64,000 nucleotides of DNA, taken from NCBI GenBank assembly GCA_015061165.1, contig SUXC01000005.1:62001-126000 (forward strand), read 5' to 3'. The position numbers and the translations under genes are program-made. The notes beneath the pieces were generated by a model, which worked only from the letters and a program-made list of their open reading frames with translations, was not told where the DNA came from and did no database searches. The stretch is from Bacteroidales bacterium (GTDB lineage Bacteria > Bacteroidota > Bacteroidia > Bacteroidales > Paludibacteraceae). Numbering within the stretch: position 1 is the stretch's first letter; every line of letters starts with the position of its first letter. Positions 311-55,697 of this stretch are shown piece by piece.

Positions 311-3300
311 ATGAAAAGTATTTTTTCTCAAATTTCTAAATCTTCATTGTTCAATCACGCAAAACGATTGGCAATAGTTTTGGTTTTCCTCTCCTATGCT
401 GCTGCTGCTGCTGCTAATCACGGCACGCACTATTCTAAGGCAACGGTTAGTGCAAATCCTACTGGTGGTGGTACCGTGTATGTTGCCACGAGTAACTCCA
501 AACCGCAAAATGCAACACCATCAGCAACACAAAATTGTAGTGGAAGTAGTAGTAAAGATAATCAGAAATACTATTTTTGGGCTGAGGCAAATTCTAATTA
601 TACTTTCCTTAATTTTACGAGTGGGAATGATTCTTATACTACAGTCAGTGGACAAGAGATATCTGTAACAGCAAAAAGCACGAATCAAAGTGCGCCAACC
701 GAATTAAATGTGGTTGCTAATTTTAGTCCTATTATAGCAGGTGAGAATGAGATCGTTATGTATAAAATGCCTGATGGCTCTTTGAGTCCAGGTACTGCTG
801 ATGTTACGCTTAATAAAACCACCAGTTTAGATATTGAATGTAGTCGTTCAGACTTGTTTGATGTGACATCCAGTGCACCTCCTACTGGTGAAACAAACGA
901 AATAATAACTATTTCAGTAAAAAAGAAAGCAACTGCGGGAGATATTCCATTAGGACAGGCTGCTACGCTTACGCTTACGCCCGCGAATGCCAGTTTGTCG
1001 CAATTGTCGCCAGAAGCGTATAATCCAGTTGCGAGAACAATAAAGATTACAATTAAGGAACCTTTAACGGTGACCTTCAATCCTGCTGTTAAGGGTGGTT
1101 ATTACACATTCCAACAAACATCTGTAGAAGGATCCGCTGTGGAGGTAAATACTCAAAAATCAATTGGAATTGTGAGTCCTCAGGAGGGTGTTGTGGAGTT
1201 AAAAGCCTATCCAACTACAGGTTATCGTTTTAGAAGATGGGTAATTGAGCGCGAAGCTGCAGAACCTGAGTATTTATACGAAGCCGTTGTCACTCCTAAT
1301 CGATTTAACTCTGATGCCACAGTTACCGCGGAGTTCGTGGATACCAAATACGCTCAGTTTATCATTTTAGGAACAGACACCGCCAAGTACAAGTATGCGC
1401 ACTTAGATGATGCTATTGCGGTAGCACAAAGAGATGGTAAAAACGTGGTTGCTGTGTATGTGCCAGGGCGTCTGAAAATAACATCTAAAACCACAAGAGG
1501 TACGGGAATACATATTTTTGAATATAACTTAACTATTAGTTCTATTGTATCAGAAGGAAAGACAGACTGGATTCTTCCTAAACCATCATCGGGAACCTAT
1601 ACCATTCCATCTGGTATTACATTTTTAGTTCCTGGACTAGATAAGGCTGCAATACAAAACTTAATTGATAATAGGGAGGTAAGAGAAGGTTATGTATCGT
1701 ATCATACCATTAATTATAGATACAATACAGGTGCTGGTGTGAATGATGATTTTTTAGAGTTGGCTCCTACTCCCAAATGTATATGTAAGTTATCTGTAGA
1801 GGATGGAACAAAGATTGAGGTGAATGGTGCTATCTCTGTATTTTCTTCTCCGTCAGCGAGCACGGGTTATACAGGACGTCCCACTGGGTACGGACAACTC
1901 CATTTGGGGGAGAATAGTACCATCGAAGTGAATGATGGTGGTATCTTACATGTGCTTGGATATGTTACTGGCAAAAATCTCAATTCCACTGTAACTGCAA
2001 AAAAAGGTGCTACTGTTTATGAAGTATTCCAATTTACAGACTGGCGTGGAGGTACAGCAACAACGACTGGGTTTAATGGCTTTATAAGCAACGAAGTGTT
2101 CCCTGTTAGTCAATATTATATGCAGAGTATAGAAACTAAACTCATCATGGAATATGGCTCTAAGGAAGTGTTGATAGCCGCAGTAGATGTGTCATCGCCG
2201 TTTCCCGTAAGTCCTGGATTGACTGATACTATAAAAGAGACGATTACATCTTCTGGCGCAATTAAGGAGAATAGCTTGGGTCTTTTCTTGCTGGGAGAAG
2301 GCACACGATTAGAGAAATACTACGATTTTACAAATGACTCTTTATACGTAAAGATTGTAGGTACATCGAATACCTCCCGTGCTAAATTGAATTATATGTT
2401 TTTGGATCTCTCTGACTCAGGTGTTGGTTCATATTCGTTGGATTCGAGGAAATATATACTTCCCCTGAATCATAATTTCGCAGTTACACTTGATAATGTG
2501 CAATTAGAGTGCCCATATAAATTTGCTTTTATGCCAGGTTCGCGCTTAGAGGTTAGTCCTACTGCACATCTAAAGATTCAAAATAAGGTCTATGTCTATG
2601 ATGCTGAGTTAAACGTGCGTCCTTCTGACCCAGCTAAGGGCTATTGTGGTTCCACTAATGAACCGATCAAGCCTATTACATATACCTCCAAAGGAGCACC
2701 AACTGCACGAAGTAAAGAGTATGTTCGTTATCCTGCTAAAATGAAAGATGCTACATTTATCATAGATGGTACACTCACGATGGAAGATGCTAAGATTGTA
2801 GTGGATGACAAGGAAGTGAATATTCAAGGTATGCTCCACACAACCACAGATGATGCAAGTGTTCAAGGGATAGTGGGGGATTCTGTGAAAATAAAACAAG
2901 ATTTTGGCGCCAATATCACATCGAATGCCAACGGTGTGATAAATTTCAACAGATTAGGTACCACAACTGCAGTTAAACAAATAAAGCAAAATGACAGAAG
3001 CATAGAAGGCTATGAGCAAATCCCAGTTTGCAATGCATGGCTGCGCAATAGTGATACAACGCGCACTGCTGGTACAACTGCTGCACAAGGAGATACATAC
3101 ATGTATATCGATGGATTCTGGCAAAAACCTACAGCAACATTGAGTAATCCTCAAGGAACAAACTTCGTTGTTACTTTGCCAAATGACACTCTTCAATATG
3201 TTGAATGCGATGAGGTGGGAAATAATGCTACGATCACTAATGTCCAGAAAACATCGGTAGAGGGTAGTCTCTTTGTCGTTGGAGATGTTAAACGAGAAAA

Positions 3301-6300
3301 CGGAAAAGTAAAAATCCCTGTTACCTATAAACCTAACGGAGTGCACAATGCAGGTGGTACACCAAATCAAGGGAAGATTCACTTGCAGTTGACTTATGAA
3401 GATGTTTTAGGTAAATCCCACACAACGCCTGTTGAAGTAAATTTAACAGGTACAGAGAATTATAAACCAGCCTTTTCCGTTGCTATCAATGGAACTCCAA
3501 TGCAGAATGGTGAAACTTATCCAACTATCCAAGGTACTGGGGTGGGCGAAACGGATTCATTATCAGTAGTTATCACACCAAATCCAAATAATATTACTTC
3601 AACGAATTTGGTAAGTTGGATTGATGCCGCAAGTGCTACCGCCGCACCATTCGCATTCGCTTATGGAGAAGCAGATGCTTTCTTGTCGGAGGCAACTTTA
3701 TCCTATACGCCAACTGCAGTTTCTGACAATGATCCTGGAACATTAACTATTAAGGCTTCTTATCCTAATGGAGGAACGCCAGTAGATTCAACTATTGTAA
3801 TACATTTGTCGGCTAAAGTTGGTTACAAACCAAATAAATTGGAGTTTGCTCAATTTCCAACGCCCGTTTATACGACTACTGAGCCATTCTTGTTGTTGAA
3901 TGATGCAACTAATAATGCTGGCACAGCGATAACTTGTTCAACATCACCAGAGGGCATTGTTCAGATTATTGGTGATGGTACGGCTGGTAATCCTTATAAA
4001 GTTAAACCAATAGCAGAAGGATTGACCACAATCACCGTTGGACAAATTGCAAGCTCAAGCGTAGAGGGTAAAGAAATATCGGCTCAAATAAATGTAACAA
4101 GGGATGACTACACCTTGCAGTCTGTTACTTTCTGTATTGACAATAATACAGTATTCAATACGCACTTATATAATACCGCAGGCGTAACTTACAATGCAGA
4201 GAATAGTCCATATACGATTGACTTTAATTCAACATCTGCCGTTTCTACATGGCAATTCCAATTTTTAGGTATGCCAGACAAACTCACATTTACACCTTCT
4301 GGCGTAAATGCATGGAGAATTAGAGAAGGTAAACCTGTGACAGCAGGAGTTGAATCAACCATTGATTGGAGCGTTGTTACAGAGTGGACAAGCCTTACAT
4401 CAGGTACACCAGTGTCATATACTTTGCAACCCACCACTCGATATGTGGAAATTAGTTATGGAGCTACAACTCCTGATATAGGTAAAATAGTGGGTGATGT
4501 GTGTGTGACAGCATTGACTATCCGAACACAAACGGATAAACTCTATATGCCTATTTATTACACTACAGATGTGGTGACTCAAGATAGCGTCGTGTTTACA
4601 CACACGAGCGTTTCTACTCCTACTATATCTGTCGATGGCATCAATGCTTCTCCCAAAGCGCCTAAGAAATTTGGTACTGATGAAGAACCATACTACGAGA
4701 CAGTAGTTCTTCTACAAGCACCAGCAACGACAGCAGAGGGCACCTATGCACTTACAGCTACGCAAAATCCCAATTCTGCAACAGTGAATGTTACAACCTA
4801 TAAGTTCCCACAAGAACTACCTATCAAGTTGGCAACAGATAAGCCAGATAATGGTGACAGATACTACTTTGTGACAGCAGGTTCACGTTATGCACAATGG
4901 GATGCTACTAAGCGTCAAATTGTGTTCCAAAATCCAGGTTCTCAAGTAGCGCGTTCTGTTACTTTTGCTTTCAATGGTGCACCAAGTATTATTACCTTTG
5001 ATGTTTCTTCGGCAGACGGAGCACAAACTATCAATAATGCAGATTGGACCATATACGAAAGTAAAGATGGCAAAGACTTCCAACCTGCAAGTTTGGCTAA
5101 GCGTGATTCGATAGAGGATAATACTCTTATACAAGAACTTAATTACACAACCCGATATGTGCGTGTGGAATACAATGCACAATCCACTCGAGAAGTATAT
5201 TTGTCAAATCTTGTTATAGAAGGTTATCCACAAGCAATTGTTCATCCAGACAATCTGTTCTTTACGAGTGAAGAAACGAAGCACTTATTATATATGATTG
5301 CAATTAATTTGCAAAAAGTAGATTTTGAAATCGATAATGCAACAGCATTCCAAATGACCACGGATACTACATCTACTGCAACAGATTGGAAATCAATAAT
5401 TAATGCTACCGAACAAACCCATAGTACAGCTTTAGGAAAAAATAAAGTAGATACGATTTTCTTGGCAGTACGATGGTCACAGCAGACTGCTTTGGATGAA
5501 GGCAAAATTACCATTAAGAGCAAAACAAATGATAGTATCCTAACGATTATACCGCTTGTAGGATCAGATAACTACTTGACAATTGATAAAGCGGAAAATA
5601 CAGGTCTGTCAACAGGTATTCCAAATGAATACACATATCATGGCAAGAAATATACCGACTATGACTATCATGAAGTTACTTTAACGAATGCTTTTGCGAA
5701 AGATGGCACAGCATTGTTTGATTATCTATTTATTTATGGCGAAACTACCCCTCCAGAAGGTAAGACAAATATCACTCCTCCAGGTACAGATGGTTCGTTA
5801 GTCGGATCGAATGCTGTCACTCCATATTTTGTTTACAGAAAAGCCCAGAATTCGGAGCAACAATACAAAGGATACCGATTTGTTGGTAAGGTGGATAATG
5901 CAAACATTTCAGATAAGGCTATTGTTGTTGATCAAGTGACTAATGATACAATCATTACTAAGGATACAGCAAGTGTAGTGTATATAAACGTACAAGACAC
6001 CACACTTAGTATTTATATGACTGGTTTCTGCCCGTATGCAACAACGGGTCATACCAAGAACCAAGAAGGTGTATTCCTCTTCCGTGGTTCACATGGAGCA
6101 AAGTTAGATGTATATCTCGAGGACTTCTATGTTTCAAGTCGCAATAAAACAAGAAATGGTAATGCTTTCTATGGCAATAAAGATGGAGGTGAGACTTATT
6201 CCGAAAGTTATTCTCGTGGTTCAGGAGGTGTGCTTGTGTTTGAAAATGTGGATGCACAAGAGCAATTACAGAACTTTACTCCATTTGAGGTTTCTATTCA

Positions 6301-8707
6301 CACAATAGGCGATAATATGCTTAATAGTAACCATGGATGTTTCTTCGCTCTTAAGATAGGTGAAGCAACTGCAATGAAGGCATACCAAGTTTCATCGCCT
6401 CTGCAGGTACATATGTTAACAAAAGATTATGTTAATAAAACAAAAACAACTATCAATATTGATGATATTTGGCCTACTGCAGTTGATGCAAATAACGTAA
6501 TTGTCGATTCGTGTCGTACCAATGGATTCCTTGCACTTAAGAAACAGGCAAATAATGCACCTTCTATTGATTTGGGTAATGCAAATACGATTGTCAATTT
6601 CAAAGGAGGTAGAGTCCAACTGCAAAATTCGCAAATTGGTAGTGATACCTATAAAACAACTCTCGCTATTTCTTATCGTGCAGGATTTTTTGGTTCGGAA
6701 GAAGCTGGTATCAAACTCTGTCATGGTATCGGTACTGATGCTGTGGATGGTATCGTAAACTTCCTTGATGGTACAGTGACTGTAGAACGCATGAAGGTTG
6801 ACAATGCATATCGTCAATACTATCTGATGGATACGTTACCAGACGGTACAGAGTCGGAATATACCACTTGCTTGCGTACGCCTAAAAATACATTTATCAA
6901 GGGTGGTTCTATTTGTCGTGTACGTGCATGTCAGCATGTTACATCTAAAGGTGGCGCACCTAAAGATACCAATACAGGTAGCCTGTTAGGACAATACGTC
7001 TATACGATGCAAAGTGCAGATCAACTTAATGCAAATGGTTCTGTGAAATCAATTGCTTTTCCAGATAATCTTGCTGGTCTAAAAGAATATCAAACGTCAC
7101 GTAATTATACGTATGGATTGAAGAGTGTGACACCAGATGCAAATAACAATCTGTACTTTTGGGTACCAGAAGGTTATGGTAATGTAACGATAGAGAAAGA
7201 TGTCTTTATGGCGACATGGAAAGCATGTATGACCAAGATAGGTGCAGGTATCGCTAATGTGGCGGAGGGAGAGATAGGTGGCGATATTGAGATTAATTCC
7301 GATGAAGAAGTGCAGAACTTCCTCTATTGTCAATTAGATGATAATATATACAATGTGATTAATGCAGGACCTGTAGTTGACGGAAAGAAATCATATACCT
7401 ATCAGGCTCCTATTGAAGTACCTGCTGCAGCAAAAGAGTTCTTCAAAGGAAATTATACTCGTTGGGCACCTAACCTCGTAGGTTCTGCTAAACAACATGA
7501 AGTGACAAGTACTAATTCTTATACTATCGCCAATCGTGTATATTATATTACAACCGCTACTGCCGACATTTGGCAAACCTTCACTGCTCCATTCAATGTA
7601 GAAAACATCTATGTGGTAGAGACGTACTCAGAAAAAGCATTAGAGGATATAGGAAAAACCGCAGAACTGTCATCAGCTCGTGACACAATCTTAAAAGTTC
7701 AGGCTGTGCACAATGCAGACTTTGCAGCTTTCTTTGGTGTAGCTATGGCTATGGGTTCAATGAAAGACTTCGACGGAATTTATGATTCATATATCAAATG
7801 GGCAAAGATTGAGGATGATAGTCTTGAGTTGTCTTGGGATAATGGACCACTACGTGGCAAACAAGAATTGGTGCCATATATTGGTAAGAACTGGCGTGAA
7901 GCGAATTTCTATCTTAACGAAAACAAAGGCAATTGGGGGTTGACCCAAGAAAAAGACTCATTTGCTGTACAGTGGGAGATGCTAACTGTAGCAGACACAT
8001 TAGATGGAATATTGCTCCACAAAGGAAGAACTTATTCAATGCTATTCCCTTATTGTGTTGGATGTGAGGACGCCTTTGGTGATAGAGACTATTGGGATTA
8101 TTGGTCTGGCAAGTTCCTAATTTTTGAAAGTGAGGCTGCACCACAAATAATCAATGGCCGCGACTTCCTTGATCCGAACAAATCGGGTAGTATTTTTGTT
8201 GATAAACCTAATGTTGGTGAGGTAATAGTAAAAGGCAATAGTACTTTTGCTAATATGAATGCAATAGACAAAGATATTTATGTATACGACAATTATTATC
8301 CAGCGATGAATGAAGAATGCTTTGAACCAGTAAGTCAATCGGAAAATAAGGTTGTTTATCCAACTACAGCCTTCCTTTATGGTAATGTACCAACGAATGC
8401 TCAAGGTATGCCAGCGCGTAGTATTGGTCGTACAGGTAAGATTAACTACGGTAAAGATAACACCGCTACCGATGTGAACCCAGGTGGCAATATCCCAACC
8501 GTAGGTGGTGGTAATGACCTCTTTATTACTTCGACAGTGGAGGGTATCAACATTGCCGTGGCAGAGTCACAACATGTACGTGTACTCTCATCCACAGGAG
8601 CAGTCCTCTACAGCGGTATGGTACAAACCGCAGTGGATGTCGCACTCCCAACCACAGGTGTATATGTCATCACTGGTGAAAACGAAGTACACAAGATATT
8701 GCATTAG
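311..8707 (+). CDS. Giant secreted/cell-surface protein (2798 aa) with N-terminal signal peptide, InlB-like repeat region and T9SS-type-A-like C-terminal sorting tail
   Basis: Single uninterrupted ORF; hydrophobic leader ending SYAAAAAANHG; C-terminus ...VRVLSSTGAVLYSG...VDVALPTTGVYVITGENEVHKILH resembles Por secretion tails. Confidence 0.85.
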   Translation: MKSIFSQISKSSLFNHAKRLAIVLVFLSYAAAAAANHGTHYSKATVSANPTGGGTVYVATSNSKPQNATPSATQNCSGSSSKDNQKYYFWAEANSNYTFLNFTSGNDSYTTVSGQEISVTAKSTNQSAPTELNVVANFSPIIAGENEIVMYKMPDGSLSPGTADVTLNKTTSLDIECSRSDLFDVTSSAPPTGETNEIITISVKKKATAGDIPLGQAATLTLTPANASLSQLSPEAYNPVARTIKITIKEPLTVTFNPAVKGGYYTFQQTSVEGSAVEVNTQKSIGIVSPQEGVVELKAYPTTGYRFRRWVIEREAAEPEYLYEAVVTPNRFNSDATVTAEFVDTKYAQFIILGTDTAKYKYAHLDDAIAVAQRDGKNVVAVYVPGRLKITSKTTRGTGIHIFEYNLTISSIVSEGKTDWILPKPSSGTYTIPSGITFLVPGLDKAAIQNLIDNREVREGYVSYHTINYRYNTGAGVNDDFLELAPTPKCICKLSVEDGTKIEVNGAISVFSSPSASTGYTGRPTGYGQLHLGENSTIEVNDGGILHVLGYVTGKNLNSTVTAKKGATVYEVFQFTDWRGGTATTTGFNGFISNEVFPVSQYYMQSIETKLIMEYGSKEVLIAAVDVSSPFPVSPGLTDTIKETITSSGAIKENSLGLFLLGEGTRLEKYYDFTNDSLYVKIVGTSNTSRAKLNYMFLDLSDSGVGSYSLDSRKYILPLNHNFAVTLDNVQLECPYKFAFMPGSRLEVSPTAHLKIQNKVYVYDAELNVRPSDPAKGYCGSTNEPIKPITYTSKGAPTARSKEYVRYPAKMKDATFIIDGTLTMEDAKIVVDDKEVNIQGMLHTTTDDASVQGIVGDSVKIKQDFGANITSNANGVINFNRLGTTTAVKQIKQNDRSIEGYEQIPVCNAWLRNSDTTRTAGTTAAQGDTYMYIDGFWQKPTATLSNPQGTNFVVTLPNDTLQYVECDEVGNNATITNVQKTSVEGSLFVVGDVKRENGKVKIPVTYKPNGVHNAGGTPNQGKIHLQLTYEDVLGKSHTTPVEVNLTGTENYKPAFSVAINGTPMQNGETYPTIQGTGVGETDSLSVVITPNPNNITSTNLVSWIDAASATAAPFAFAYGEADAFLSEATLSYTPTAVSDNDPGTLTIKASYPNGGTPVDSTIVIHLSAKVGYKPNKLEFAQFPTPVYTTTEPFLLLNDATNNAGTAITCSTSPEGIVQIIGDGTAGNPYKVKPIAEGLTTITVGQIASSSVEGKEISAQINVTRDDYTLQSVTFCIDNNTVFNTHLYNTAGVTYNAENSPYTIDFNSTSAVSTWQFQFLGMPDKLTFTPSGVNAWRIREGKPVTAGVESTIDWSVVTEWTSLTSGTPVSYTLQPTTRYVEISYGATTPDIGKIVGDVCVTALTIRTQTDKLYMPIYYTTDVVTQDSVVFTHTSVSTPTISVDGINASPKAPKKFGTDEEPYYETVVLLQAPATTAEGTYALTATQNPNSATVNVTTYKFPQELPIKLATDKPDNGDRYYFVTAGSRYAQWDATKRQIVFQNPGSQVARSVTFAFNGAPSIITFDVSSADGAQTINNADWTIYESKDGKDFQPASLAKRDSIEDNTLIQELNYTTRYVRVEYNAQSTREVYLSNLVIEGYPQAIVHPDNLFFTSEETKHLLYMIAINLQKVDFEIDNATAFQMTTDTTSTATDWKSIINATEQTHSTALGKNKVDTIFLAVRWSQQTALDEGKITIKSKTNDSILTIIPLVGSDNYLTIDKAENTGLSTGIPNEYTYHGKKYTDYDYHEVTLTNAFAKDGTALFDYLFIYGETTPPEGKTNITPPGTDGSLVGSNAVTPYFVYRKAQNSEQQYKGYRFVGKVDNANISDKAIVVDQVTNDTIITKDTASVVYINVQDTTLSIYMTGFCPYATTGHTKNQEGVFLFRGSHGAKLDVYLEDFYVSSRNKTRNGNAFYGNKDGGETYSESYSRGSGGVLVFENVDAQEQLQNFTPFEVSIHTIGDNMLNSNHGCFFALKIGEATAMKAYQVSSPLQVHMLTKDYVNKTKTTINIDDIWPTAVDANNVIVDSCRTNGFLALKKQANNAPSIDLGNANTIVNFKGGRVQLQNSQIGSDTYKTTLAISYRAGFFGSEEAGIKLCHGIGTDAVDGIVNFLDGTVTVERMKVDNAYRQYYLMDTLPDGTESEYTTCLRTPKNTFIKGGSICRVRACQHVTSKGGAPKDTNTGSLLGQYVYTMQSADQLNANGSVKSIAFPDNLAGLKEYQTSRNYTYGLKSVTPDANNNLYFWVPEGYGNVTIEKDVFMATWKACMTKIGAGIANVAEGEIGGDIEINSDEEVQNFLYCQLDDNIYNVINAGPVVDGKKSYTYQAPIEVPAAAKEFFKGNYTRWAPNLVGSAKQHEVTSTNSYTIANRVYYITTATADIWQTFTAPFNVENIYVVETYSEKALEDIGKTAELSSARDTILKVQAVHNADFAAFFGVAMAMGSMKDFDGIYDSYIKWAKIEDDSLELSWDNGPLRGKQELVPYIGKNWREANFYLNENKGNWGLTQEKDSFAVQWEMLTVADTLDGILLHKGRTYSMLFPYCVGCEDAFGDRDYWDYWSGKFLIFESEAAPQIINGRDFLDPNKSGSIFVDKPNVGEVIVKGNSTFANMNAIDKDIYVYDNYYPAMNEECFEPVSQSENKVVYPTTAFLYGNVPTNAQGMPARSIGRTGKINYGKDNTATDVNPGGNIPTVGGGNDLFITSTVEGINIAVAESQHVRVLSSTGAVLYSGMVQTAVDVALPTTGVYVITGENEVHKILH

Positions 8708-8735
8708 TTGTCAGTTATCAGTTGTCAGTTTTCGG
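8708..8735. repeat. TTGTCAGT/ACTGACAA-family degenerate tandem repeat
   Basis: ttgtcagttatcagttgtcagttttcgg. Confidence 0.85.
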
Positions 8736-8744
8736 TAATTAGTT

Positions 8745-9104
8745 ATGAAGGATTTTAAGAAGCAAATTATATGGCAACGAAGTCATACACTAACATTAAC
8801 AATTTATAAGGCTACAAAAACTTTTCCGAAAGAGGAACTTTATGGTTTAACCTCTCAAATACGACGCGCCATTGTTTCTATCCCTACTAATATAGCAGAG
8901 GGATGTGGACGGCGTACCAATGCAGAGTTGGCTAATTTCTTGAATATAGCATCAGGTTCTGCTTCGGAAGTAGAGTATGAATTGTTAATAGCGAAGGAGT
9001 TAGAATATATAACTGCAGAACAATACGACGGGTGGATTCACGAGATTTCCGAAATACGTAGTATGTTAGCCGCCTATATGAAAAAACTGAGAACTACCCT
9101 TTAA
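8745..9104 (+). CDS. Four-helix bundle protein (23S rRNA intervening-sequence protein family)
   Basis: WQRSHTLTLTIYKATKTFPKEELYGLTSQIRRAIVSIPTNIAEGCGR is the hallmark of this family. Confidence 0.9.
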   Translation: MKDFKKQIIWQRSHTLTLTIYKATKTFPKEELYGLTSQIRRAIVSIPTNIAEGCGRRTNAELANFLNIASGSASEVEYELLIAKELEYITAEQYDGWIHEISEIRSMLAAYMKKLRTTL

Positions 9105-9182
9105 CCACTGACAACTGATAACTAACCACCGAACACTGACAACTGAAAACTAACCACTGACAACTGACCACTGACAACTAAT
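9102..9182. repeat. ACTGACAA-family degenerate tandem repeat, opposite orientation to 8708..8735
   Basis: accactgacaactgataactaaccaccgaacactgacaactgaaaactaaccactgacaactgaccactgacaacta. Confidence 0.9.
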
Positions 9183-9184
9183 TT

Positions 9185-10387
9185 ATGAAACGAGCAATAC
9201 TGAATATCCTATTTCTTGCTTTTGCCCTAACAACGGTGGGGCAAAAGCAAGAATTGTCCGTAGCCGAACGCAATGCGCAGATGGGTTTCAATGATACCAT
9301 CGACCGCCTCGCGGATGATTTCGTGTTCGTGAGCCTAATGGTAGCCGACCCTACGGATTGGCGTGATGATGTGTTAGGTACGCAAGGGCATGCTTTCCTG
9401 CGTTTGCAATGTCCTGTATTTGATTTGGATTATTGCTTCAGTTACGAGAGCGAGAGTGTAAACACGCAAGTAGCTAAGTATGCCAAGGGGCAACTCAAAA
9501 TGGGTATGTTTGCCATTCCTACCGACGAATATCTGCAAGATTATCGGCATTGGAATCGTGCGGTACACGAATATCGCCTGAACCTTCCCCCAGAAGTGGA
9601 GACGCGCCTTTGGGAGATTATGGATAACAAATTGAGTAGGGGACTGAGTATGAAGTTAGACCTTAGTCGTCGCGGTTGTGCCATTTCTGTAGTGCATTTC
9701 ATCAAAGCGGCATTGCAGGATATTCCGATTGTATATCCTCAAGGTACACGCTATGAGACACTATCTCGGCGTGAGATTATGTACCAAGATTTGGAGGCAC
9801 ATCCATGGTTAAGACTTCTGTATGGCATATTGATACCCAATGACTATGATAAAGATTGCCCGATAGATGAGAAACTGATTGTACCTGCTGATTTGGCAGA
9901 GATATGGCAAGCCTCCACGCTGAATGGCAAGGTATTTGCCGAATATATAGGAGATGTTGTTCAGTCGGATTATGTGGAAGATACGAAATTCCCTCTTCTC
10001 ACTCCTCAATTGTTTGCATGGATCTTATTACTGATTACTATATTGCTGATGACTTTGGGGGTAATTGGCTGGAAATGGATGCTATTGGGCTTACAGTGCT
10101 TTGTAGGAGTATTCTTGTTGTATATGGCACTGTTCACACAACTATTTACGAGTGCAGGTTGGTTGATGATGGTATTGTTCAATCCACTTCCTCTTATCCT
10201 GTGGAAATGGCATAAATACTGGCAACTGCCTTATGCCGTGCTGCTGTTGATAGAGGTACTGGTGCTTGTGTGCTGGCCCCACATGTTGGTGGACCCTGCT
10301 TATATTGTTTTGTTGTTCTCCTATAGTGTGTTGTTTGCTTCTGAGTCAATCAAACATGCTTATGTGTTGTACAAAAAGAAGAAATAA
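9185..10387 (+). CDS. DUF4105/Lnb N-terminal periplasmic-like membrane protein
   Basis: Signal peptide; GHAFLRLQCPVFDLDYCFSYES...RRGCAISVVHFIKAAL; C-terminal TM segments. Confidence 0.7.
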   Translation: MKRAILNILFLAFALTTVGQKQELSVAERNAQMGFNDTIDRLADDFVFVSLMVADPTDWRDDVLGTQGHAFLRLQCPVFDLDYCFSYESESVNTQVAKYAKGQLKMGMFAIPTDEYLQDYRHWNRAVHEYRLNLPPEVETRLWEIMDNKLSRGLSMKLDLSRRGCAISVVHFIKAALQDIPIVYPQGTRYETLSRREIMYQDLEAHPWLRLLYGILIPNDYDKDCPIDEKLIVPADLAEIWQASTLNGKVFAEYIGDVVQSDYVEDTKFPLLTPQLFAWILLLITILLMTLGVIGWKWMLLGLQCFVGVFLLYMALFTQLFTSAGWLMMVLFNPLPLILWKWHKYWQLPYAVLLLIEVLVLVCWPHMLVDPAYIVLLFSYSVLFASESIKHAYVLYKKKK

Positions 10388-11531
10388 AACGTATCCACTA
10401 CTGCCCTTCTCGCAATTGGTATTCCACATGATTCGTTGGGCACCGTGGGTGTATATGTTTGATATTCGTTGGTGTTGGCATGGTCAGAAAAAGGAACTGC
10501 AACGCATTGAGTCTGCCATTCTGCAGGTGCTGAATCACCATCCCGTTTTCAATATGTATGTGGACGCGCATGGCTACCAGAGCTATCAGTCCTCGCCTGC
10601 CACTATGAAAGGGCAGTATTATGCCATTCGATTATGGACCAAGGGAGAAGATGTGTATTGTCGATTCCGATGGAGTAGAATCTTAGGCGATGGCAAAAGC
10701 ATATATATCTTCTTTGAGAATGTTATTCGAGCATACAGAGGAGAAGTATTGCCCTCAGATGAGTATCTAACCTATTTGGAAGAGCAATCACAAATACAAT
10801 GTTCTGCTCGTTATGCAAATAGTAAAACATGGTTAGAAACTACTTTTGCAGATACGAACGTGCCTGTGCGCCCATTGATAGATAGAAAGCGTCTGCATAC
10901 CATTTTCCCTCCACGCGTGGGGATATTGAACGAAGATTACCGTGCTTTTAGTGCAGATATCAATCGGTTCTCGCAAGACAATATGCTTACGTTGGATGGC
11001 TTCTTCTCTTTGTGCGTAGCATTGGCAATTGCAGAATACTGCGGTACAGAGAGCGCAGCACTCACTTGGGCATATGAGGGTAGGGAAACACCTATGGAGC
11101 AACATATCTTTGGTAGCCTGCATCGGGATATTCCTTTCCAGATTAGGCGTATGAACCCTGCTACCAATCAACCCTATACGCGTGATGAGTTGGTGCATCA
11201 GGCGCGTCATCAGATTCGCTCGGGTATTGCGCATAGTGATTATCCTTATACGCTGACTGAGCCCCATAATGCCCGTTGGGATTATGCAGTGAATATTATA
11301 CGAAATCAGAATCCAAATGAGTTGCTATCTGCTTCACCTATTCCCACCACGCTACTGCCTATGCCCAAGCAGAGAATAGCCTACGCTATGCTGGATATTG
11401 AGATATGCGAGGTGCAGGGTGGAATAGAGGAGTTGCTATTCCGATATAGTGCCACGCATTATAAGAAAGAGAGCATGCAGCGTTTCGCTGCTATGATAAA
11501 ACAATATGCCCTATGGTTGTTGAGCAAATAA
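10356..11531 (+). CDS. Condensation-domain/alcohol-acyltransferase-like protein
   Basis: NHHPVFNMYVDAHG and SRILGDGKSIYIFFENVIRAYRGE align by eye with C-domain core motifs; start chosen inside longer ORF 10266..11531. Confidence 0.6.
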   Translation: MLMCCTKRRNKTYPLLPFSQLVFHMIRWAPWVYMFDIRWCWHGQKKELQRIESAILQVLNHHPVFNMYVDAHGYQSYQSSPATMKGQYYAIRLWTKGEDVYCRFRWSRILGDGKSIYIFFENVIRAYRGEVLPSDEYLTYLEEQSQIQCSARYANSKTWLETTFADTNVPVRPLIDRKRLHTIFPPRVGILNEDYRAFSADINRFSQDNMLTLDGFFSLCVALAIAEYCGTESAALTWAYEGRETPMEQHIFGSLHRDIPFQIRRMNPATNQPYTRDELVHQARHQIRSGIAHSDYPYTLTEPHNARWDYAVNIIRNQNPNELLSASPIPTTLLPMPKQRIAYAMLDIEICEVQGGIEELLFRYSATHYKKESMQRFAAMIKQYALWLLSK

Positions 11532-12595
11532 AACAAATACTATCATCCAATCAGGAGTTGCGTGCTATGGTGGAGCAGTCGCTTCTTATGGCGCAGCGTG
11601 CCAATCCCGACCGTGGCACCAATCCTGTGCACTCCTTGGAGGAATGGTATGTGTATTTAGACGCTTTCCGATATCGTATGCCTTGGGAGAGTCTTCAGTT
11701 GGGTGAGGATGCCTCGTTCTTCCATCGTATAGACCAGTGTATCGGCTATTTCTATTTCCTGTTGGATCAACCTCTGGAAGCGTTGAAGGATAGAGGGTAT
11801 TGGTATCCTTCGCTGCAATACGAACCCACTATTGCCCATTGGTTGGCTGCGTATAATACGGCATGGGGAGAATGGTTGAGCAGTAGCGATAGTTGGCAAG
11901 AGGCGTATTATCAATTAGCGCGCACCGATAGTCGATTCGAATTAGATACTGCGCGCTATGAGTCGCCCGAACATTGGCATAGTTGGAATGATTTCTTTGC
12001 GCGCCGATTGCGCACACCGCTTATAGTGCCCCATTGTGGGTTTGTTAGTCCGTGTGACGGTGTGCTGATGGATATGCCTGTAAAAACGACTTCTATGGAT
12101 GAACTATCTGATTTATTAGCAGGTAGCACTTACCAAGATGTTTTCGTGGGCGGAAAAGCCATTCATTGGGTATTGGATGTATTTGACTACCACCGTTTTC
12201 ATGCCCCTTGTGCTGGCGAGGTGGTAGAATGTCGTACTATAGGCGGTATCCACGCAGGCGGTGGAGTCATTATCTGGGATGAGGAGCAGCATCGCTATCG
12301 TTATGCACAATTAGCCTCCACGGGTTTTCATTCTTTAGAGACACGAGGTGTATTGGTTATGGATACGCCCGAATATGGTCGTATCGCATTGGTGGCGGTA
12401 GGCATTCAGCAGGTGAGTTCGGTGGTGTGGAACGATTCCATACAGATTGGCACGAAAATTGAGCAGGGTCAAGAGTTAGGGCTTTTCCAATTCGGAGGCA
12501 GCGATATCCTCTTACTTTTTGAATCGGGTAGAGGATTTACGACAGAGAACAACAAACCTATGAAAGTGGGCGAGAAACTGACCACTGACCACTGA
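11513..12595 (+). CDS. Phosphatidylserine decarboxylase-family protein with PSDC-like N-terminal domain (PsiD-like architecture)
   Basis: DVFDYHRFHAPCAGEVVE and autocleavage-like QFGGSDILLLFE motif near C-terminus; N-terminal NPVHSLEEWYVYLDAFRYRMPWE. Confidence 0.75.
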   Translation: MVVEQIKQILSSNQELRAMVEQSLLMAQRANPDRGTNPVHSLEEWYVYLDAFRYRMPWESLQLGEDASFFHRIDQCIGYFYFLLDQPLEALKDRGYWYPSLQYEPTIAHWLAAYNTAWGEWLSSSDSWQEAYYQLARTDSRFELDTARYESPEHWHSWNDFFARRLRTPLIVPHCGFVSPCDGVLMDMPVKTTSMDELSDLLAGSTYQDVFVGGKAIHWVLDVFDYHRFHAPCAGEVVECRTIGGIHAGGGVIIWDEEQHRYRYAQLASTGFHSLETRGVLVMDTPEYGRIALVAVGIQQVSSVVWNDSIQIGTKIEQGQELGLFQFGGSDILLLFESGRGFTTENNKPMKVGEKLTTDH

Positions 12596-12665
12596 AAACT
12601 GACAACTAACAACTGACTACTGACCACTGACTACTGATAACTGATAACTGACAACTGACAACTGA
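12577..12665. repeat. ACTGACAA-family degenerate tandem repeat
   Basis: ctgaccactgaccactgaaaactgacaactaacaactgactactgaccactgactactgataactgataactgacaactgacaactga. Confidence 0.9.
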
Positions 12666-12667
12666 AT

Positions 12668-12910
12668 ATGACACAACAAGAAATACAATCACAGGTAAAT
12701 GCCTTTTTGGTAGATCGTTTAGGCTATGAACTCAGTATGCTAACTCCAGAAGCAGAGTTGAAACGCGATTTAGGTATGACCTCCTTAGATGCTGTAGAAA
12801 CGACTATCTTTATCAAATATAGTTTTGGCTTTCTACCCGAACGCAATGCCATCAAGATGCTCGTAACGCTTCAAGACTTATATGATTATATAGGTAAAAA
12901 TATTTGTTAA
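12668..12910 (+). CDS. Acyl carrier protein
   Basis: 80 aa; LKRDLGMTSLDAVETTIFIKYSFG with 4'-phosphopantetheine serine in the TSLDA motif. Confidence 0.85.
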   Translation: MTQQEIQSQVNAFLVDRLGYELSMLTPEAELKRDLGMTSLDAVETTIFIKYSFGFLPERNAIKMLVTLQDLYDYIGKNIC

Positions 12911-12930
12911 TCTTTAATTCACAACGAACT

Positions 12931-14505
12931 ATGACTGAACATTATTTAGATAGATTAGCCCGAACAATCAATGCGAATTGGGATGCGCCTGCGCTCACGG
13001 ACTTCTATCTCACCGAGGACGGCACCTCCCAAGATACCACCCGTGGCAATCATTATACCTATGGTGAAATGTATATGGAGATGCTACGTCTTGGCGAACT
13101 CTTTAAGCAACTTGGATTGCAAAAAGGCGACCACATCGCAATTTGTGGGGCCAACTCAGCCCACTGGGCAATTGCGTACCTCACCATCGCTGCTTATCAA
13201 GGTGTGGTGGTCACAGTTTTGCATAGTCAGTCGCCCGAAGATATTGCCCGACAGATAGACTTCTCCGATGCCAAAGCACTCTTTACTGATGAGGTGATTT
13301 GGGAAGAAATCAGTGCCTCATTTTCGGATGAAGGGAATCAACTTGCTTTTACTATCTCTTTAGCAGATTGGTCATTGATACATTCAGTCCCTTGTGTTTC
13401 CCGACAGTTAGCCGACGGTCAACCGAAGGTTAACGCTACCTTTACCGAAGCTTCTTTGAGAGGACAATGTCACTTCAGCCACGGAGAACCTGATGATTTA
13501 GCGATGATTTGTTTTACGTCAGGGTCAACTGGTTTATCGAAAGGAGTGATGCTGAATCATAAATGTATGAGTAATAGCGTAAAGCATGTAAAATTCAAAT
13601 GCCCCGAAGATAGTAATAGAAATTTCATAGCCTTTCATCCGTTTGCACATATGCTATCTTTCTTTGGAGAATTGTTGGGGCAATTGTGTATAGATAAACA
13701 TGTTTATGTCTTTATGAATTCTATAACTTTACAAACTTACTATAACTCATTGTGTATTATTAAACCATATTCAAGTATTGCAGTACCATTATTATTAAGA
13801 GGCCTATTGGGGTTATATGGCGAAGAATCATTATCAAAATTAAAATCATTTCTTAAAGTCATAGGCACAGGTGGTGCAGATTTGTCCATAGATTTAGAAA
13901 AAACGTATAGCAAAATAGGTTTGCCTCTATCAAATGGTTATGGGATGACAGAGGTTGGTATAGCTATTAGTGGTGTAAAAATCAATGAAATAAAGATATC
14001 TTCTTGTGGCAAGATAGTTGAAGGAATGACTGCTCGTATAGCTGAAAATGGTGAAATACTTGTCAAAGGCGAGAATGTGATGCTTGGCTATTACAAGAAT
14101 CCAGAAGCAACCGCACAGAAGATTGATGCCGATGGTTGGTTGCATACCGGCGACCGAGGTTATTTAGATGAGGATGGCTATCTGTATGTGGAGGGACGTT
14201 TGGAGCAAGATATGATTGTATTGCCCAATGGTGAGAATATACACTCCGATAATATAGAAAGCAAGATAAATGCCCTGCCCGACGTGGCAGAGTCCATTGT
14301 TATTGCTCGTGAAGGCAAACTCGTGGCAATTGTAGTAGTCAGTGGTGAGTTATCAGCGGACAGCAGGAAGGCTCTCAGATTGTCCATCCTTCGCTCGGTT
14401 AATGCGCAATTGCCTATGTACGCACAGATTTACGACATCGAGTGGAGCGAAGAACCCCTTGCTCGCACCGCCAAACAAACCCTAAAACGATATTTGTATA
14501 AGTGA
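12931..14505 (+). CDS. AMP-binding acyl-CoA/acyl-ACP synthetase
   Basis: FTSGSTGLSKGVMLNHK, NGYGMTE, LHTGDRGYLDEDGYLYVEGR, terminal RTAKQTLKRYLYK; start chosen at ATG 12931. Confidence 0.9.
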   Translation: MTEHYLDRLARTINANWDAPALTDFYLTEDGTSQDTTRGNHYTYGEMYMEMLRLGELFKQLGLQKGDHIAICGANSAHWAIAYLTIAAYQGVVVTVLHSQSPEDIARQIDFSDAKALFTDEVIWEEISASFSDEGNQLAFTISLADWSLIHSVPCVSRQLADGQPKVNATFTEASLRGQCHFSHGEPDDLAMICFTSGSTGLSKGVMLNHKCMSNSVKHVKFKCPEDSNRNFIAFHPFAHMLSFFGELLGQLCIDKHVYVFMNSITLQTYYNSLCIIKPYSSIAVPLLLRGLLGLYGEESLSKLKSFLKVIGTGGADLSIDLEKTYSKIGLPLSNGYGMTEVGIAISGVKINEIKISSCGKIVEGMTARIAENGEILVKGENVMLGYYKNPEATAQKIDADGWLHTGDRGYLDEDGYLYVEGRLEQDMIVLPNGENIHSDNIESKINALPDVAESIVIAREGKLVAIVVVSGELSADSRKALRLSILRSVNAQLPMYAQIYDIEWSEEPLARTAKQTLKRYLYK

Positions 14506-15353
14506 TTATTCAGGATAAAATATTATCAGGCGAACGCCCGTTGTATGGCAGTAGAGACCTGCGACTGGAGCGAGTTACTATTGGCGAAGGCGAGTCAGCC
14601 CTCAAAGAATGTAGCCATATAGAGGCGCATGAGTGCGTGTTTGAGGGATGCTATATATTTTGGGAATGTGAGGACGTGGAATGTCATAATTGCCATTTTA
14701 CTCCCGATGACCGTGCTCCACTATGGTATGGCAAAAATATCCGTATGCACGATTGTATTGTAGATGCTCCGAAAGTATTCCGAGAATTAGATGGATTGAT
14801 ACTCGAAAATATCCAAATGTCCGATGGCGCAGAGGCTTTTTGGTATTGCAAGAATGGTCATTTGTCTGACCTAAAAATGCAACGAGCAGAATATGCGTTT
14901 ATGCAATCCAATAAATTGCAAATCAACAATTTAATACTACAAGGCAAATACACTTTTCAGTATGCGCGCAATATAGAGATTCATAATGCGGTATTAGACA
15001 CCAAAGATGCTTTCTGGAATAGTGAAGATTGTACTATCTATGATTCCGATGTCAAGGGAGAATATCTGGGTTGGTATGCACGAAATCTGCGATTAGTCAG
15101 ATGCCGCATATCGGGCACACAACCGCTCTGCTATTGCGAAAATCTAATCATTGAGGATTGTGTCTTTGCACCCGATGCCGACCTCGCTTTTGAACATTCG
15201 TCCGTGCAAGCTACTATTCTTTCTGCTGTTACTTCTATCATTAATCCTAAATCAGGTAGGATCCAATGTCAAAGTATAGGTGAGTTTATACACAATGCAG
15301 ATGCCAAAACTCCAGACGATTGTCAGCTAATAAGCTTCGCCGAGAGAAGTTAG
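14502..15353 (+). CDS. DUF3737-like right-handed parallel beta-helix protein
   Basis: Repeating short C/H-rich rungs (ECEDVECHNCHFTPDDRAPLWYGKNIRMHDCIVDAPKVFRELDG); GTGA overlap with upstream ligase. Confidence 0.75.
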   Translation: MIIQDKILSGERPLYGSRDLRLERVTIGEGESALKECSHIEAHECVFEGCYIFWECEDVECHNCHFTPDDRAPLWYGKNIRMHDCIVDAPKVFRELDGLILENIQMSDGAEAFWYCKNGHLSDLKMQRAEYAFMQSNKLQINNLILQGKYTFQYARNIEIHNAVLDTKDAFWNSEDCTIYDSDVKGEYLGWYARNLRLVRCRISGTQPLCYCENLIIEDCVFAPDADLAFEHSSVQATILSAVTSIINPKSGRIQCQSIGEFIHNADAKTPDDCQLISFAERS

Positions 15354-54304: not shown

Positions 54305-54403
54305 TAAGGTAAACTCCTTACCGCGGGGGTGTGTTGTTCCCCCGCGGAATGTTGTTGAATAAAGTTGTTTAAGTTGTTGCTAATAAAAATATTTCGTTGT
54401 ATT
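54305..54403 (+). repeat. 99-bp tandem repeat unit 1 with GC hairpin
   Basis: taaggtaaactccttaCCGCGGGGGtgtgttgttCCCCCGCGGaatg...gttgtttaagttgttgctaataaaaatatttcgttgtatt. Confidence 0.95.
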
Positions 54404-54502
54404 TAAGGTAAACTCCTTACCGCGGGGGTGTGTTGTTCCCCCGTGGAATGTTGTTGAATAAAGTTGTTTAAGTTGTTGTTAATAAAAATATTTTGTTGTA
54501 TT
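54404..54502 (+). repeat. 99-bp tandem repeat unit 2 with GC hairpin
   Basis: Near-identical to unit 1 (three C-to-T differences seen). Confidence 0.95.
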
Positions 54503-54503
54503 T

Positions 54504-55697
54504 ATGTACACTGATTTCCAAAAACACCTGCAAACTATTCTCAACGATATTCGTGAGGCAGGATTGTATAAAAACGAGCGCGTGATTATCACGCCTCAAT
54601 CCTCGGCCATTCAAGTAGAGGGTGGCAAGGACGTCATCAACTTCTGCGCCAACAACTACCTTGGTCTCGCAGATAACCCCGAACTTATCCAAGCTGCCAA
54701 AGACCGCATGGACGCGCGTGGCTATGGTATGGCATCGGTGCGCTTTATCTGCGGTACGCAGGACACCCACAAGCAACTCGAACAAGCCATCTCCGACTTC
54801 TTCGGTACCGAGGATACTATCCTCTATGCAGCTTGTTTCGATGCCAATGGTGGTTTGTTTGAGCCACTCCTCACCGACCAAGATGCCATCATCTCCGATG
54901 CGCTCAACCACGCCTCTATCATCGACGGCGTGCGCCTTTGCAAGGCAGTGCGTTATCGCTATGCCAATGGCGACATGGCGGACCTCGAGGATCAACTGAA
55001 GAAAGCGCAAGCACAACGCTTCCGTATCATCGCTACCGATGGCGTATTCTCCATGGACGGTAATGTCTGCCCACTCGATAAGATCTACGAACTCGCACAG
55101 AAATACGATGCCCTCGTGATGGTAGATGAGAGCCACTCCGCAGGTGTAGTTGGCAAGACAGGTCATGGTGTCACCGAGCGTTATGATCTACGCGGTAAGA
55201 TTGAGATTATCACTGGTACATTGGGCAAGGCCTTTGGCGGTTCAGTAGGTGGTTTCACCACAGGTAAGAAAGAGATTATCGACCTGCTTCGCCAACGTAG
55301 CCGTCCATATCTCTTCTCCAACTCTATTCCTCCATTGATTGCAGCAGCAGGCCTCAAGACCTTCGAGATTCTTACTCGCAGCAACGAACTCCAAGACCGC
55401 TTGCACGCGAATACCGAGTACTTTATCAGTAAGATGAAAGCGGCATGCTTTGATATCAAACCAACTGAATCGGCTATTTGCGCGGTAATGTTGTACGACG
55501 CTCGTTTGAGCCAAGAGTTCGCTGCGGCATTGCAAGAGGAGGGTATCTATGTAACGGGCTTCTACTACCCAGTAGTGCCACAGGGTCAAGCGCGCATCCG
55601 CGTCCAACTCTCCGCAGCCCACACCACCGAGCAACTCGACCGCGGTATCGAGGCCTTTATCAAAGTAGGAAAGAACCTTGGTGTTCTCAATTCATAA
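54504..55697 (+). CDS. kbl: Glycine C-acetyltransferase (2-amino-3-ketobutyrate CoA ligase)
   Basis: VINFCANNYLGLADNPELI, DESHSAGVVGKTGHGVTE, GTLGKAFGGSVGGFTTG; followed by tdh. Confidence 0.95.
   Translation: MYTDFQKHLQTILNDIREAGLYKNERVIITPQSSAIQVEGGKDVINFCANNYLGLADNPELIQAAKDRMDARGYGMASVRFICGTQDTHKQLEQAISDFFGTEDTILYAACFDANGGLFEPLLTDQDAIISDALNHASIIDGVRLCKAVRYRYANGDMADLEDQLKKAQAQRFRIIATDGVFSMDGNVCPLDKIYELAQKYDALVMVDESHSAGVVGKTGHGVTERYDLRGKIEIITGTLGKAFGGSVGGFTTGKKEIIDLLRQRSRPYLFSNSIPPLIAAAGLKTFEILTRSNELQDRLHANTEYFISKMKAACFDIKPTESAICAVMLYDARLSQEFAAALQEEGIYVTGFYYPVVPQGQARIRVQLSAAHTTEQLDRGIEAFIKVGKNLGVLNS

Follow-up and report, generated by a model that had tools for sequence, protein, structure and literature searches.

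Proteins of the DUF4105 family are permuted NlpC/P60 enzymes, one of which, Lnb, is a lipoprotein N-acyltransferase of Bacteroides; in the related Tox-Act1, the His and Cys residues are needed for activity (PMC12994826). The X-domains of glycopeptide NRPSs carry the motif HRxxxDD and recruit P450s to a carrier-bound peptide (PMC11546977), and PsiD carries a GGSS motif (PMC6121855). A gene set with likenesses to all three lies in the 64,000-nt stretch of DNA analyzed here (the window), which belongs to a genome of 2.5 Mb in 32 contigs that is 98% complete. Its features, all on the + strand and given in window coordinates, are as follows:

9185..10387, + strand: gene A, Lnb-like protein (DUF4105, permuted NlpC/P60), with a signal peptide and C-terminal TM helices, recognized by Pfam/NCBIfam; predicted acyltransferase
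10356..11531, + strand: gene B, stand-alone protein of condensation fold in which [N/S]RILGDG replaces HHxxxDG, from Pfam, AF2, Foldseek, and the motif in 45 homologs
11513..12595, + strand: gene C, PSD-family pyruvoyl decarboxylase with an N-terminal extension of ~155 aa and a GGSD self-cleavage motif
12576..12665, + strand: AACTGAC heptanucleotide array across the end of C and the C-D gap, encoding the last residues of C
12668..12910, + strand: gene D, stand-alone acyl carrier protein (ACP), with Ser39 in GMTSLD
12931..14505, + strand: gene E, AMP-dependent acyl ligase (acyl-CoA ligase/4-coumarate ligase-like), predicted to load D
14502..15353, + strand: gene F, DUF3737 beta-helix protein (Pfam) with a GTG start, a constant companion of the operon

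The six codirectional genes of the initial annotation are all present, and the tight packing that it described is borne out by the ORF coordinates, with overlaps of ~32 bp between A and B, 19 bp between B and C, and 4 bp between E and F, and a gap of 20 bp between D and E. The C-D gap of 72 bp, the sole wide one, is filled by the heptamer array. Two starts were corrected: that of B from a mechanical TTG at 10266 to ATG 10356 (or 10362), and that of E from TTG 12904 to ATG 12931, where homologs of E begin. Profile searches, which had been proposed for each protein, returned matches to Lnb_N/DUF4105, Condensation, PS_Dcarbxylase, ACP-like, AMP-binding, and DUF3737, respectively.

The array in the C-D gap, which supplies the C terminus of C, is the third of its kind here. 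The other two flank an S23/IVP four-helix gene (8745-9104; region 8706-9182) in opposite orientation, with TTGTCAG upstream and CTGACAA downstream, an arrangement that resembles a small mobile unit. Upstream of A, positions 311-8707 encode a secreted, repeat-rich protein of 2798 aa, which we did not count as part of the operon; giant ORFs akin to it sit upstream of A in many loci, possibly marking a shared genomic hotspot. Elsewhere in the window (54305-54504), there are two tandem 99-bp copies, 97% identical, each with a strong GC-rich inverted repeat (CCGCGGGGG...CCCCCGCGG).

The initial annotation would have been undermined if these genes did not co-occur elsewhere. They do: the order A-B-C recurs in ~40 other MAG loci of Paludibacteraceae, the genes usually overlapping by a few bases, and most loci continue downstream of C with codirectional genes for KR, KS, ACP, AMP-ligase, and DUF3737. 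In three loci (L104, L105, and L102, the last from horse faeces), B and C form one protein of ~705 aa, with F directly before A. That unrelated genes came to lie side by side by chance is barely conceivable: although mobile cargo (HipA, AbiEii, AAA/DUF4143, and S23) interrupts the operon in relatives, the conserved order, the B-C fusion, and the phyletic co-occurrence all speak against such a reading, and on this neighborhood survey we reject it. It is near certain that the six genes form a real, conserved operon. The cargo, comprising HipA with HTH, AbiEii, AAA_14/DUF4143, and S23 genes, lies between or beside the biosynthetic genes and in the same direction in L033, L039, L070, L074, L089, and other loci.

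When GTDB contigs were scanned with the B alignment as query, 45 loci were obtained, nearly all in Paludibacteraceae or Bacteroidales MAGs; a single-sequence scan of genome contigs with C gave no match. Where an animal source is stated for the 45 loci, it is the rumen, reticulum, abomasum, or faeces of herbivores. Strong full-length matches to the B profile were obtained in 24 of 250 genomes of the family, 23 of which belong to the same genus. Across 295 genomes of the order, no full-strength match was found besides the window's own genome, and two matches were weak and partial, one lying within a very long open frame, as an ordinary NRPS would give. Among 120 relatives, 24 other genomes of the genus encode C-like proteins, a few of them of the stand-alone type, and plasmid records contained no relative of B. 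The operon was thus found only in uncultured gut Paludibacteraceae, mostly herbivore-derived, that is, in one genus-level group with rare neighbors. Hence, of the co-conservation across Bacteroidales for which a survey had been suggested, the co-conservation stands and the breadth does not.

The first gene product, A, combines a signal peptide, a soluble domain, and C-terminal TM helices, and its His69 and Cys165 are invariant in 37 sequences, as in a permuted NlpC/P60 enzyme. It matches Lnb_N/DUF4105 (PF13387) at 19.5 bits, below cut-off, and the NCBIfam Lnb model NF051878 at 63.9 bits against an equivalog cut-off of 550, which marks it as a homolog and not as Lnb itself; 20 of 21 A members match the NCBIfam model. 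Foldseek returned no significant match for A, the best being the permuted NlpC/P60 protein TseH (E 0.1). The DUF4105-like membrane protein of the initial annotation is thus upheld and refined to a homolog of the Lnb-family acyltransferases with conserved His and Cys. One reading of the whole locus starts from this homology: A, as an Lnb paralog, would take a special acyl group from an aminolipid that C produces and attach it to lipoprotein N termini, the remaining genes making the donor lipid. The Lnb match, the signal peptide, and the membrane helices are consistent with such lipoprotein or surface acylation, as is the lipoprotein N-acyltransferase activity of the characterized DUF4105 protein (PMC12994826). 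However, the score of A is far under the Lnb cut-off, stronger Lnb_N matches exist elsewhere in the window genome (C19, 84.9 bits), and short versions of A in relatives lack most of the TM helices, which together make this reading unlikely.

The condensation fold of B is well supported by profile (Pfam Condensation, 1.1e-14) and by structure prediction (AF2 model with pLDDT 94.6; Foldseek matches to NRPS C domains and X-domain with TM ~0.8 and E 1e-22). The HHxxxDG motif is absent: HH is found in 0 of 45 B proteins, the second position being Arg in 44 and Val in one, and only one of the 45 has His at the first position. Acyl transfer by B, as initially annotated, is doubtful, as the catalytic histidines are missing; B may be a scaffold instead of a catalyst, by analogy with the X-domain. 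The same likeness, taken together with the B-C fusion, suggests that B could bring C to its substrate. Judged by conserved residues, A is more likely than B to be the acyl transfer enzyme.

A more conventional NRPS-like conjugation, in which E would adenylate amino acids and B would be an active condensation catalyst, accords with the C-domain fold of B and with a weak match of E to the amino-acid adenylation model (114.5 bits). The loss of HH in all 45 B proteins argues against it, as does the higher score of E as an acyl-CoA/4-coumarate ligase (192 bits), and the chemistry is also unfavorable: once bound as a thioester, an amino acid can offer C no free carboxylate. We consider this alternative very improbable. 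For the same chemical reason, E more likely loads the chain than the substrate of C. E matches Pfam AMP-binding (1e-57), and it is predicted to load D with an acyl group, though E need not act on D. Protein D scores 42.7 bits as ACP-like, below cut-offs; its pantetheine Ser, S39, is invariant in 23 ACPs, as expected of an acyl carrier protein.

Phospholipids, too, can serve as substrates in the PSD family, to which C belongs (PF02666, PS_Dcarbxylase, 1.8e-34). It retains the features of the pyruvoyl superfamily, namely, the catalytic Asp and His and the GS cleavage site: H227 (in DYHRFH) and G329-S330-D331 are invariant, the Asp of SPCDG is present in nearly all alignment rows, and GSD is found in 41 of 41 sequences. 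Whether C might simply be the sole housekeeping Psd had been raised at the outset as a threat to the annotation. Another PF02666 gene, with the motif FGSR, is present in the window genome (G000:C28), and C as the sole or orthologous housekeeping Psd is rejected. The C copies of the operon form one clade (99/99 support), the sister of which consists of stand-alone long proteins that also carry GGSD. Two same-genus members of the sister clade, among its five loci, lie directly downstream of amino-acid transporter genes, one (L053) behind a Na+:dicarboxylate symporter and an amino-acid ABC system and the other (L052) behind a fusion of an SNF transporter with arginine deiminase. By score, C is closer to PsiD L-tryptophan decarboxylases (63 bits) than to E. 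coli Psd (44 bits), and its nearest solved structures are of the PsiD kind, a comparison that stands without a control in that the housekeeping Psd of the same genome gave no solved-structure match.

These observations bear on whether C could be a genuine PS decarboxylase serving a variant phospholipid, with the acyl genes remodeling its chains. Membership in PF02666 and the conserved catalytic His and GS cleavage site would fit such a head-group pathway, but the separate Psd, the patchy distribution, GGSD in place of GGST, the closer relation to PsiD than to Psd, and the amino-acid transporter context of the sister clade render it distinctly unlikely. From its sequence relationships, we infer that the substrate of C is an amino acid or a conjugate of one, and the GGSD PSD subfamily is probably not a phospholipid enzyme.

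Two further features of C and its relatives were seen in passing. A variable loop of C (alignment A1, PSD columns ~740-790) carries short repeat-like peptides in many species (NHKSEIINHK), which looks like an in-frame entry of intergenic repeats into the gene, and another repeat-like peptide, NKEQRTK, occurs elsewhere in L055. At L052:7305-11141, the sodium:neurotransmitter symporter–arginine deiminase fusion followed by the stand-alone GGSD PSD-like protein could be a system for amino-acid uptake and decarboxylation.

The last gene, F (Pfam DUF3737, 6.9e-107), is a constant companion of B: taking the two 250-genome family samples to be the same genomes, as their handles suggest, all 24 genomes with B also have F, as do 15 of the 226 others (p~1e-23). 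It is linked within ~10 kb in 18 of the 24 and lies on other contigs in six. Our literature search found no paper on DUF3737.

What varies among loci is the supply of the chain. The six-gene set as first listed is confirmed, but it is only the smallest variant of a larger modular pathway: the window has the minimal E+D form, to which relatives add KS, KR, AT, a dehydratase, or a CrtI-like oxidoreductase. We scored module classes in the 32 loci with enough sequence. Thirteen, including the window, have E without KS (class 1); 10 have E with KS2, mostly also with KR (class 2); eight have KR, KS1, and an FAD oxidoreductase, in most cases accompanied by another type of ACP (class 3); and one has no chain-supply module. 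E and the FAD enzyme are mutually exclusive (23 versus 8 of 32 loci, p ~ 9e-7), and KS1 and the FAD enzyme always occur together (p ~ 1e-7, same loci). No D was detected nearby in 7 of the 23 E variants, and most KS1/FAD variants have neither gene, so that E need not act on D. On the B+C tree, the E/FAD label changes eight times, with at least seven changes forced by well-supported branches, and hence the chain-supply part has been exchanged while the core was kept.

The added genes have recognizable relatives. The closest relative of the KR is flexirubin FlxB (324.7 bits; cut-off, 340), that of the FAD protein the CrtI family, and that of AT FabD; a FabA/ApeI-like dehydratase adjoins KS1 in three loci, and the ketosynthase Cys and His are kept in nearly all copies. 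The window genome has a single ketosynthase, on another contig; the version in the window must therefore start from a preformed acid or draw its chain from fatty-acid synthesis.

Drawing on the observed gene set, its conservation and linkage, the fusion, the motif losses, and the exchange of modules, we propose the following predicted steps, substrates, and product. E would use ATP to activate a fatty or aromatic carboxylic acid and load it onto D; in relatives, KS, KR, dehydratase, and the CrtI-like FAD enzyme would instead assemble the chain on an ACP. C would decarboxylate an amino acid or amino-acid conjugate to an amine, with B guiding both C and its substrate to the carrier protein in the way that the X-domain recruits P450s. 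The acylated amine or amino-lipid would then be exported, and A, as an Lnb-type His/Cys acyltransferase on the periplasmic side, would carry out a final acylation or transfer, F being a required accessory. That the operon encodes a modular, carrier-dependent acyl/aryl-amine or amino-lipid pathway with an Lnb-type acyltransferase as its last enzyme is the reading that we tentatively favor, giving it, from sequence evidence, a little short of an even chance. Its more specific form, a new class of carrier-protein pathway in which a condensation fold that has lost its catalytic activity serves to recruit a pyruvoyl amino-acid decarboxylase to the carrier-bound chain, and a family of gut acyl/aryl-amine lipids is diversified by module swaps and completed by a dedicated Lnb-type finisher, is possible but on balance doubtful. 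The original suggestion of a small acylated amine or a lipid modification stays the best guess, apart from the acyl-transfer role once given to the condensation protein.

If this proposal is right, the operon would make an undescribed family of specialized metabolites or lipids, carried only by uncultured rumen and hindgut Bacteroidales, a host group known almost only from MAGs. It would link three testable oddities: a GGSD PSD subfamily that matches a phospholipid-enzyme family yet is probably not a phospholipid enzyme, a condensation fold without catalytic histidines, and an Lnb paralog in a biosynthetic operon. Repeated swaps of the chain supply offer a natural series for working out the role of the conserved core. 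The initial remark that no described pathway is known with this exact set agrees with the literature that we searched, in which no paper joined PSD, condensation domain, ACP, and biosynthetic gene cluster.

The operon is apparently undescribed, its parts being of known kinds and their combination and module exchange new. With Lnb of Bacteroides, A shares the domain, the permuted NlpC/P60 His...Cys order, the signal peptide, and a membrane part, and differs in its low Lnb score and in being outscored as Lnb_N within its own genome. B shares with the X-domain of glycopeptide NRPSs the C fold and an Arg for the catalytic His (Foldseek 4tx3, TM 0.80); unlike that domain, it is stand-alone or fused to the decarboxylase and not inside an NRPS, and the second Asp of the motif is not conserved. 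C resembles PsiD and PSD-family amino-acid decarboxylases in the PSD fold, the N-terminal extension, the GGS motif, and the best solved-structure match; the similarity is modest, and C is prokaryotic, has GGSD and not GGSS, and is tied to an ACP operon and to B. The larger variants share with the type II FAS/PKS-like aryl polyene and flexirubin clusters of Bacteroidota a FabB-like KS, a KR close to FlxB, stand-alone ACPs, an AMP-ligase, and a FabA/ApeI-like dehydratase, whereas the window form lacks the elongation set of KS, KR, and dehydratase. The conserved core here is instead Lnb-like, condensation-fold, PSD-like, and DUF3737 proteins, a combination that we know from no aryl polyene or flexirubin cluster.
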